NCBI GenBank assembly: GCA_903863885.1
Contig: CAIPEB010000389.1
Location: 1 to 61,833 of the forward strand
Source of the DNA: an uncultured Planctomycetaceae bacterium
Lineage (GTDB): Bacteria > Planctomycetota > Planctomycetia > Pirellulales > Pirellulaceae
Reading direction: 5' to 3'
DNA length: 61,833 nucleotides
The translations under genes and the position numbers were made by a program. The first letter of the stretch is position 1. Each line of letters begins with the position of its first letter. The notes beneath the pieces are model-generated. The model had not been told where the DNA came from. It was given only the letters and a program-made list of their open reading frames with translations, and did no database searches. Shown one piece after another: positions 10,104 to 56,824 of the stretch.

Positions 10104-10238
10104 GGAGTCGGGAGTCTGGAGTCTGGAGTCCGGAGGCTGGAGTCTGGAGGCTGGAGTCTGGAGCTTGAATCGGGAGATACTCGTTTTTCCGTCTGACTAC
10201 CGACTATCGGCATCCGGCATCTGACTGCCGGCATCCGC
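10104..10238 (-). repeat. Dispersed heptamer-array intergenic element, copy A
   Basis: On the plus strand nine head-to-tail 7-base units (GGAGTCT with variants GGAGTCC, GGAGGCT, GGAGCTT) run from 10104 to 10166. After a short spacer come the sequence TTTTTCCGTCTGAC, a degenerate GACTATCGG-type part, and CCGGCATCCGC at 10228-10238. Read on the minus strand this is the same order as copies B (15877-16023) and C (43832-43930): GCGGATGCCGG, then TAGTCGG-like units, GACGGAAAAACG, a spacer, and CTCCAGA-type units. No coding signal is present. It lies between the HTH-receiver gene and moaC. Confidence 0.85.
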
Positions 10239-15844: not shown

Positions 15845-15876
15845 TGCGGCACGATCCACAGAGCGGACGTGAGGGA

Positions 15877-16023
15877 GATTCGCCACGCAGGATGAAAATG
15901 CGGATGCCGGCTGCCGGTAGCCGGTAGCCGGTAGCCGGTAGTGAGATGGAAAACCGTTTGCCCCCGAACTCCGGACTCCGGACTCCGGACTCCGGACTCC
16001 AGACTCCAGACTCCAGACTCCCG
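15877..16023 (+). repeat. Dispersed heptamer-array intergenic element, copy B
   Basis: This is the fullest copy. Order on the plus strand: head GATTCGCCACGCAGGATG at 15877, GCGGATGCCGG, four exact CCGGTAG units at 15914-15941, the link GAGATGGAAAACCG, a short spacer, then eight 7-base units at 15968-16023 (four ACTCCGG, three ACTCCAG, one ACTCCCG). It sits between the stop codons of two convergent genes. The 16041 end of the Nudix gene is only 17 bases away. Confidence 0.9.
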
Positions 16024-16040: not shown

Positions 16041-16649
16041 TCAGGTCAGATGCTTCGCCGCGATGTGAATACCGGCGTAAACGCGCACATCGACCTTCCG
16101 GCCCGCATTGTGCTGGGCGTCGAGCCACTCGAACGCCTCGGCCAGCGGCACCTCGTGGACCACAATATTCTCGTTTTCCACTCCGCCGCCGGCATGAATC
16201 TTCTGGAGTCCGGTGGCCAGAAAGATGCTCACCTGCTCGTCGGTCAAACCCGCGCTGGACGGACCGGAGAAGATCTCGCGAAGCTGCCCCGCATCGTAGC
16301 CAGTCTCTTCCAGCAACTCGCGGCGGGCGGCCTCGGCACAGGACTCGACCGAAATGCCCACCTGATCGTTCACCAGGCCGGCCGGCAATTCGATTACCTG
16401 CGAGTCTACCGGAGGACGATACTGCTCGACGAGCAGCAGCTTCCCATGCGGCGTGACGGCCACGACCAGAACTACGCCCGTGGCGTTGCGTCTCCGGATG
16501 AACTCCCAGCGGCCACGGCAGACCAGATCCAGAAAACGTCCCTGGGCTACGATTCGGAGCTCAGCCTGAGTGCCGGCATTGGGGGCTGTGGATTCGTCGT
16601 TCGTCAACGGCAGAACTCCGTTTGTCAAACAGCTCACGCGTCTGGGCAT
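16041..16649 (-). CDS. Nudix hydrolase, ADP-ribose pyrophosphatase-like
   Basis: Residues about 55-195 form a Nudix domain. VEQYRPP and QVIELPAGLV are typical of the ADP-ribose pyrophosphatase/NudF group, which cleaves ADP-ribose or sugar nucleotides. The catalytic helix is intact: EAARRELLEETGY. The stretch between PAG and the first Nudix glutamate is about five residues longer than the consensus spacing. The first 35 residues look poorly conserved, and the true start may lie downstream of the ATG at 16649. It is 30 bases downstream of the NHL gene on the same strand. The convergent neighbour and copy B of the repeat lie at its 3' end. Confidence 0.87.
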   Translation of the reverse strand: MPRRVSCLTNGVLPLTNDESTAPNAGTQAELRIVAQGRFLDLVCRGRWEFIRRRNATGVVLVVAVTPHGKLLLVEQYRPPVDSQVIELPAGLVNDQVGISVESCAEAARRELLEETGYDAGQLREIFSGPSSAGLTDEQVSIFLATGLQKIHAGGGVENENIVVHEVPLAEAFEWLDAQHNAGRKVDVRVYAGIHIAAKHLT

Positions 16650-43804: not shown

Positions 43805-43831
43805 TAATTACCCGAAGATTGGCACGAAGGC

Positions 43832-43930
43832 GATTCACCACGCAGGATGGAAAGGCGGATGCCGGATGCCAGTAATCAGTAATCGGTAATCGGATGGAGG
43901 CTTGTCTTCCTCCGGACTCCGGACTCCAGA
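43832..43930 (+). repeat. Dispersed heptamer-array intergenic element, copy C
   Basis: The order matches copy B: head GATTCACCACGCAGGATG at 43832, GCGGATGCCGG, three 7-base units (AGTAATC twice, GGTAATC once) at 43871-43891, the link GGATGGAGG, a spacer, then CTCCGGA, CTCCGGA, CTCCAGA at 43910-43930. It ends 25 bases before the ATG of the SGNH gene and interrupts an otherwise tightly spaced operon. Confidence 0.88.
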
Positions 43931-43955
43931 CTTCTTCGCACGAGAAACTCCGTCG

Positions 43956-56373: not shown

Positions 56374-56730
56374 GGGGGCGAACTGGATTCGACCGGATAG
56401 CTTGAAGTGGAAGTGGCGTGTCGTGGTTGGTCAGTCGGCCACGTTAAAAGCTGACCACAAATTTAAACGCTGAGGGTAACCTCGCAATGGCGGCCTAACA
56501 CAGGTCTCCCCGACTGCGAGACTTCGCCGGAGAGTCTCAAAAGTCGGTTGTAATTCCGGATCGTCGTGAGTCACGCCGGGTACGTTCACGATCAGAACTC
56601 GTTCCTGGATAGCCTGTCTGGGACCCCGCCGATTGGGGCCTGGGCACGCGAAACACCAAAGAATCGGCTACACACGTAGATGCTTTCATGGAAATGTCTC
56701 GGGACGCGGGTTCGATTCCCGCCGCCTCCA
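56374..56730 (+). ncRNA. ssrA: Transfer-messenger RNA (tmRNA)
   Basis: tmRNA rescues stalled ribosomes and tags the unfinished protein for proteolysis. The 5' end GGGGGCGAACTGGATTCGAC and the 3' end GGGTTCGATTCCCGCCGCCT are typical, and GGGGGCG pairs with CGCCTCC (one G-T) to form the acceptor stem; the discriminator is A and CCA is not encoded. The internal frame giving the most typical tag starts with GCT at 56469 and reads Ala-Glu-Gly-Asn-Leu-Ala-Met-Ala-Ala, ending at TAA 56496-56498. This matches the A-x-x-N-x-A-x-A-A tag form. The length of 357 bases is normal for a one-piece tmRNA. Confidence 0.95.
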
Positions 56731-56824
56731 CTTTTGGGCATCGGAGTCATCCGGTGCCTTTTTTTGTCGACCAGCGTCAGAAGATGACGTTTCACAAGGA
56801 CTTCCGTCGCGACTTTCTGCAGCG

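Follow-up and report, generated by a model that had tools for sequence, protein, structure and literature searches.

A composite repeat built from two different arrays of seven-base units, carried by an uncultured Planctomycetaceae bacterium, is one of a large family of dispersed elements that lie between genes, are short and do not encode protein. Probably these elements were copied as units and their heptad arrays then changed by slippage, and possibly they have a role at the 3' ends of genes. In our judgement the repeat is old, dispersed and non-autonomous and its arrays are prone to slippage; its route of spread, as well as any function, we infer. The window, i.e., the whole stretch of DNA that was analysed, is a contig of 61,833 nucleotides (C389) from a genome of 11.0 Mb in 789 contigs. 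A preliminary description made from the sequence had named three copies in this window (here A, B and C), and direct reading of the sequence bears out their positions, order and strand (Table 1).

Table 1. Parts of the three copies of the element in the window and the basis on which each was placed.
Feature	Position	Strand	Basis
Copy A array 1, GGATGCC / GGTAGTC units, without head	10193..10238	-	Direct reading; no R1 match listed
Copy A link, divergent	10164..10192	-	Direct reading
Copy A array 2, CTCCAGA / CTCCGGA, ∼8 units	10104..10163	-	Direct reading, Tandem Repeats Finder
Copy B head (ACAGAGCGGACGTGAGGGAGATTCGCCACGCAGGATGAAAATG)	15858..15900	+	Head model R1 match 15849-15920, E 1.2e-17; boundary from alignment
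Copy B array 1, GGATGCC units followed by GGTAGCC units, G-rich on +	15901..15941	+	Direct reading, Tandem Repeats Finder, period scan
Copy B link, divergent	15942..15963	+	Direct reading
Copy B array 2, CTCCGGA followed by CTCCAGA, G-rich on -	15964..16021	+	Tandem Repeats Finder, period scan
Copy C head	43813..43854	+	Model R1 match 43817-43875, E 4.8e-15; boundary as placed in flank analysis
Copy C array 1, GGATGCC then AGTAATC/GGTAATC	43855..43893	+	Direct reading, period scan
Copy C link, end = TTGTCTTC	43894..43909	+	Direct reading; exact link-plus-array match 43902-43920
Copy C array 2, CTCCGGA CTCCGGA CTCCAGA CT	43910..43932	+	Direct reading, period scan
Copy C right end TCTTCGCACGAG	43933..43944	+	Direct reading, right-end search

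In the aligned copies the left boundary of the element is near ACGGAGTTGACATGAAGG; the head of the preliminary description follows, then GATGAAAACGCGGATGCCGG, array 1, a link that closes with TTGTCTTC, array 2 and, last, a right end resembling TTCTTCGTACGAG. The parts that the preliminary description had named are present, and the element is larger than described there: the head begins ∼17 bases further upstream, at ACGGAGTTGACATGAAGG, and many copies carry a right end like TTCTTCGTACGAG. In a full copy the head runs from about ACGGAGTTGACATGAAGG to CACGCAGGATG (∼40–60 bases). The heptads of array 1 read GGATGCC or GGTARTC (GGTAGTC or GGTAATC) on one strand; array 2 is CTCCRGA, with its G-rich strand (GGAGTCC/GGAGTCT) opposite to that of array 1. 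A right end like TTCGTACGAG, which is often present, was recognised in 15 of 32 head-bearing copies under a 4-mismatch rule, 6 of the 15 being at 4 mismatches and 3 of those 6 doubtful. Copy A lacks the head, as had been claimed, and headless copies are common in the genome. Tandem Repeats Finder reported period-7 arrays in the window at 10104-10163, 15913-15941 and 15964-16021; the short arrays of copy C (43832-43930) fall below its threshold and were detected by the period scan. Blocks hold 2–9 perfect units, and length changes in whole heptads. Array 2 also shows a polarity of units, the first being G-type in 20 and the last A-type in 26 of 31 perfect arrays of at least 3 units. By these counts CTCCGGA, in the CTCC arrays of this genome, is usually interior and CTCCAGA usually outer. 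The distance between the two arrays follows no strict phase (gap modulo 7 of 4 in 6 of 14 cases, and of 3, 5 or 0 in the rest).

Other dispersed sequences were seen around these copies. A second module, CGTGGGTTGAAACCCACG plus TTCATGCCGTCGCTNCGCGAC, lies beside array 1 or replaces it in some copies and stands alone elsewhere; CGTGGGTTGAAACCCACG forms a perfect hairpin (e.g., L092:3281-3345, L069:12140-12204 and L081:6995-7051). Several copies of this module have GTAG adjoining on the other strand, and resemble in this the GTAG-tagged REPs described in the sections of PMC3733652 used here. Variants of another phrase, ATCCGTG...ATCCGTGGCCTCTTCC, take the place of the usual link before some CTCC arrays (L069:8419, L083:14161 and L090:4439).

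Genome-wide pattern searches, with reversed patterns as controls, returned far more than three copies. With up to 3 mismatches, the head pattern GATTCRCCACGCAGGATG gave 79 matches against 7 for its reversed control, and the link plus array, TTGTCTTCCTCCRGACTCC, gave 176 against 1; CTCCRGACTCCRGACTCC, with up to 1 mismatch, gave 795 overlapping matches against none. A sequence model of the head built from 27 copies matched at least 89 places at E ≤0.01, a lower bound because the best 150 of 4783 first-look candidates were scored. The comparison of these head matches with the 176 link-plus-array matches indicates that many copies are partial. Neither of the outcomes named beforehand as contrary to the preliminary description, three copies alone or arrays occurring independently, was observed. 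The genome also contains 56 matches to PF07596, and none of 14 control genomes matches. PF07596 is greatly expanded in planctomycetes.

Arrays were analysed in a sample of 1,616,810 bases, consisting of the window and 80 further stretches of the same genome; this sample leans to repeat-bearing contigs, because contigs were taken from those named in pattern hits. At a score of at least 14, period 7 accounted for 48 arrays, period 14 for 32 and period 21 for 22. The other periods together gave 34 rows, with at most 7 at any one of them between 3 and 20, the next commonest being period 18 with 7 arrays; shuffled sequence gave 0–1 per period. The first 833,010 bases contain 29 CTCC-array blocks, and array 1 lies upstream, on the same strand and within 200 bases, in 16 of them; in none of the 29 was array 1 found downstream, or on the opposite strand within 250 bases. 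The fixed order of the two arrays was thus upheld. This order and the many copies fit a small non-autonomous dispersed element whose length changes in whole units, and the common link and common order of unit types point to shared descent rather than to independent expansion.

Defining the direction of an array by its G-richer strand (more G than C), we found at T=10 a total of 67 arrays in the whole sample, of which 4 lie in genes and 59 are intergenic with two flanks, 58 of these being oriented; at T=12, 4 of 57 arrays lie within called genes. The arrays are thus mostly non-coding. Per spacer, the directions at T=10 were 12 ‘>’, 16 ‘<’, 11 ‘><’, 2 ‘>><’, 1 ‘<<’ and 0 ‘<>’. In all 13 sampled spacers with both directions, therefore, the G-rich strands face each other; these counts are not independent origins, because the arrays are parts of one fixed-order element. 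The sole ‘<<’ spacer is L153:11940, where the strand rule misjudges a type-1 array.

The placement of the arrays was measured relative to genes called by our own codon-usage script rather than by a standard gene finder. At T=10, the 5' side of the G-strand is the nearer to a gene in 42 of the 58 oriented arrays. The 5' end of this strand lies within 20 bases of a gene in 22 of the 58, against 1 for the 3' side, although the scarcity on the 3' side arises in part because the other array occupies that side. Random placement in the same spacers gave an expectation of 7.9 arrays within 20 bases and a maximum of 17 in 5,000 trials; within 6 bases of a gene, 15 arrays were observed and 2.6 expected. 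Twenty of the 22 gene-adjacent arrays are at stop codons and 2 at start codons. Of the 38 CTCC-type arrays in the sample, 16 begin no more than 20 bases away from a stop codon; for array 2 of copy B in the window this distance is 19 bases, the stop codon being that of a NUDIX gene (16041-16628, -). The copies are mostly outside genes and occur in both orientations relative to their neighbours: among 45 module clusters in the first 833,010 bases, 16 are antisense and 8 sense to co-directed genes, 12 lie between divergent and 6 between convergent genes, 2 are at stretch edges and 1 is inside a called gene.

Among the 351 pairs of 27 aligned heads the best identity is 92% and the median 72%, and no pair reaches 95%. 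These values argue for copies that are old rather than recent. According to the scheme that we favour, the whole unit would have been copied some time ago by a non-autonomous route, dispersing the copies, and the arrays would later have grown and shrunk seven bases at a time through replication slippage, a change that would be tolerated mainly outside coding sequence. The weakest part of the scheme concerns the site just behind stop codons: there the G-rich heptads would begin the 3' untranslated part of many mRNAs and could have a slowing effect on ribosomes, RNA decay or RNA polymerase, as is reported of REP elements within 15 bases of stop codons. None of our tests shows selection for a stop-codon-proximal role.

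A different origin would be a transposon-derived element, MITE- or REPIN-like, with a transposase recognising its ends and the heptads as putative binding sites. The right end counted above in 15 of 32 head-bearing copies (with 3 of the 6 matches at 4 mismatches doubtful), the second, perfect-hairpin module interwoven with some copies, and a common core of ∼30 bases that lies in both orientations between heptad arms in another genome of the phylum (G182) are all consistent with such an origin. However, target duplications, which the preliminary description had proposed to check, were not found in the flanks of 15 copies, in which the longest shared flank word averaged 3.80 against 3.76 with shuffled flanks, so that transposition stands as no more than a candidate route. 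Inverted terminal repeats were not seen by eye in the copies of this genome, and neither of its two matches to Y1 transposase adjoins a head. A transposon-derived origin is therefore, in our estimate, unlikely. The two Y1 loci share 597 bases at 93% identity. One of them holds a CTCC array nearby, where the head model matches just the array-1 end; at the second locus none of the three module models has a match. No partner transposase was identified from these two loci. A plasmid search returned no homologue of the head.

The preliminary description had offered a non-autonomous element expanding by slippage or a functional RNA or DNA structure. Many copies, the fixed order and blocks of 2–9 perfect units speak for the first; the second proved to be without support in this genome. 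Among 27 copies of the head, the 6 predicted pairs showed no compensatory change, and a conserved RNA structure in the head was rejected. The two arrays are not complementary, and a hairpin between them was likewise discarded for this genome. The covariance models of Rfam 15 gave no match above gathering score on the element; in the window they match tmRNA and tRNA only (the tmRNA gene is at 56374-56733, +). Examination of head, arms and folds, the last unremarkable to moderate, revealed no palindrome or hairpin of REP/REPIN type in each copy.

The structural alternative can nevertheless be put more specifically: the facing arrays would base-pair into a stem-loop or a cruciform, which would terminate transcription or shield mRNA 3' ends, their sequence being kept for that. 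Evidence for it comes from other genomes of the phylum, in which the arms are complementary: four chosen examples (from G231, G182 and G136) fold with z of -5.6 to -13.9, and in a G231 sample unpicked for the pattern (324,736 bases), an inverted partner that beats 95% of control spacers is present within the same spacer for 9 of 20 arrays. This complementary-arm result rests on G231, since G182, G353, G422 and G136 contribute 1–3 arrays each, three of these genomes without a control spacer, and G237 has none in called spacers. In the genome of the window, by contrast, 1 of 59 arrays has such a partner. The folds of 10 elements of this genome gave z of +0.3 to -2.8 on the top strand and -0.6 to -3.5 on the bottom strand; the latter is negative in all 10 (mean ∼-2.0), i.e., the ten elements lean mildly to greater stability than shuffled sequence on one strand, and for one of them, L070, both arrays pair with each other in the predicted fold. 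However, when the columns of the right array were permuted, its pairing with the left array was as good as that of the real sequence in 10–50% of cases. We thus regard a functional hairpin as distinctly unlikely.

We asked how far the element extends in the phylum. The CTCC pattern was found in 5 of 59 relatives, none of the same genus as the genome of the window, at 1–6 places each, and in 39 of 391 other genomes of the phylum, against 21 for the reversed control. Because of these control hits, single matches mean little and only genomes with many hits count: G231 has 132 places, G182 21, G353 17, G237 16, G136 12 and G127 10. G100 has 27 hits of the reversed control pattern, which suggests arrays of a different heptad. 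The head model gave one weak partial match among 118 other genomes of the family, under strict filters and with the best 40 candidates scored per genome. The link plus array, with up to 2 mismatches, occurs at 103 places in the genome of the window, and at 15 places in 14 of 293 other genomes against 11 for the reversed control, i.e., without excess outside this genome. Thus the composite is specific to its own genome, as far as searched, and the heptad and the facing arrangement are wider. An exact 24-base link-plus-array match, without head, lies in a Candidatus Hydrogenedentota MAG (L114, JAPLKX010000178.1:1394-1431, -) and is followed by an ATCATTC-like heptad run; it could reflect transfer, chance or mis-binning.

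Regions of nine other genomes, chosen for their CTCC hits, were examined. In these picked regions, facing arrays with like units in both arms are present in G182, G231, G136, G353 and G422, and single-sided arrays in stretches of G237, G278, G127 and G340. Less favourable to our reading is the unpicked G231 sample, in which the rule of more G than C gave one ‘<>’ and one ‘><’ spacer, the ‘<>’ spacer being a complementary pair in which this rule misjudges the strand; the 5' side is the nearer to a gene in 13 of 19 arrays, and the distance to the gene is 20 bases or less on the 5' side for 10 arrays and on the 3' side for 5. Pooling the G231 samples, we found inverted heptad pairs in 11 of 188 spacers (e.g., L230:9485-9585 and L230:13313-13497), 7 of the 11 coming from stretches picked for the CTCC pattern and 4 from others. 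Seven of the 11 have arms of 30–32 bases. For 10 of the 11 a gene stands no more than 14 bases away on at least one side, and for 5 this is so on both sides. One heptad is common to both arms of a spacer, with four kinds of unit between spacers, and the sequences that the arms enclose resemble one another no more than they do after shuffling (mean score 6.9 against 6.5, 45 pairs). ATTGCCACG or its complement stands beside an arm in 3 of the 11 pairs, in one of them on both sides.

Because the G231 pairs share a heptad within each spacer, adjoin genes and enclose unrelated cores, one may suppose a process that starts at gene borders, adds seven bases at a time towards the interior of the spacer and copies these steps into inverted arms; the facing arrays at spacer edges would come from it, and the window element would be a copied, asymmetric descendant. 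We hold this to be very improbable. The arrangement resembles fused telomeres, for which reason telomere-like addition of one fixed repeat at breaks was considered; it was rejected, as G231 uses different units in different spacers. Copying of whole units followed by slippage remains the reading that we prefer.

Among the papers listed in searches of the open-licence literature, none was by its title or abstract start about such repeats in planctomycetes. The tandem heptanucleotides of cyanobacteria, named STRR, are described as intergenic arrays of seven-base units, as ours are, and we know of no fixed two-array composite among STRR. Those of Calothrix are mentioned in the sections of PMC4692102 used here. 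REP, BIME and REPIN elements are, in the portions of PMC3733652, PMC12306157 and PMC3116915 drawn on, short, dispersed and intergenic, with a share within 15–20 bases of stop codons; however, REPs are palindromic, whereas our element consists of heptads in tandem and its genome yielded no conserved palindrome. The available parts of PMC6749651 and PMC4853749 hold nothing decisive for these repeats. The TAACTGA direct repeats of Beggiatoaceae, Cyanobacteria and Bacteroidetes (MacGregor 2015, PMC4679880) are likewise intergenic heptamer arrays beside ORF ends, and are reported there to be patchy across phyla. In contrast to ours, they have a single unit, are nearly always direct and lie close to start rather than stop codons; the parts of MacGregor 2015 used here do not describe a composite.

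The closest parallel is with the G-rich heptamers GGGNATC of Xanthomonas and GGGGA(C/T)T of Nostoc (Rehm et al. 2015, PMC4692102). In the sections of that paper used here, these are mostly intergenic and dispersed, the G-strand starts near the neighbouring ORF whichever its direction, and convergent pairs number 70 in Xcc and 75 in Xac and are few in Nostoc; heptamers are also said there to be over-represented among the simple repeats of many bacterial genomes and to have received little detailed work. Our arrays share the mostly non-coding tandem seven-base units, a G-strand that starts close to an ORF (22 of 58 within 20 bases, 7.9 expected) and the convergence of paired arrays (11 ‘><’ plus 2 ‘>><’, 0 ‘<>’). 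They differ in that the facing arrays have differing units and are set in a composite with head, link and right end, and in that the units GGATGCC, GGTARTC and GGAGTCY have two consecutive G, against three or four in the heptamers of Rehm et al. As has been suggested for Xanthomonas and Nostoc and for Beggiatoaceae, the G-rich heptads might be candidate binding sites for nucleic acid or protein at gene ends, through a G-quadruplex or a repeat-binding protein. The gene-adjacent placement by G-strand, as reported in PMC4692102, and the heptamers near start codons reported in PMC4679880 agree with this, but runs of three or more consecutive G, as for a G-quadruplex, are absent from our units, which have just two, and the unit sequence varies between the two arrays and between genomes; we give such binding sites little credence. 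A genome led by period 7, with facing and often stop-adjacent arrays, and its relatives with complementary arms constitute a system for asking why seven, and also what makes array pairs face each other. The convergent, gene-adjacent heptamer arrangement is itself already known from Xanthomonas (PMC4692102); what is new is that the pair is asymmetric, being made of two types of unit and accompanied by a head, a link and a right end, together with the range of units found across the phylum.
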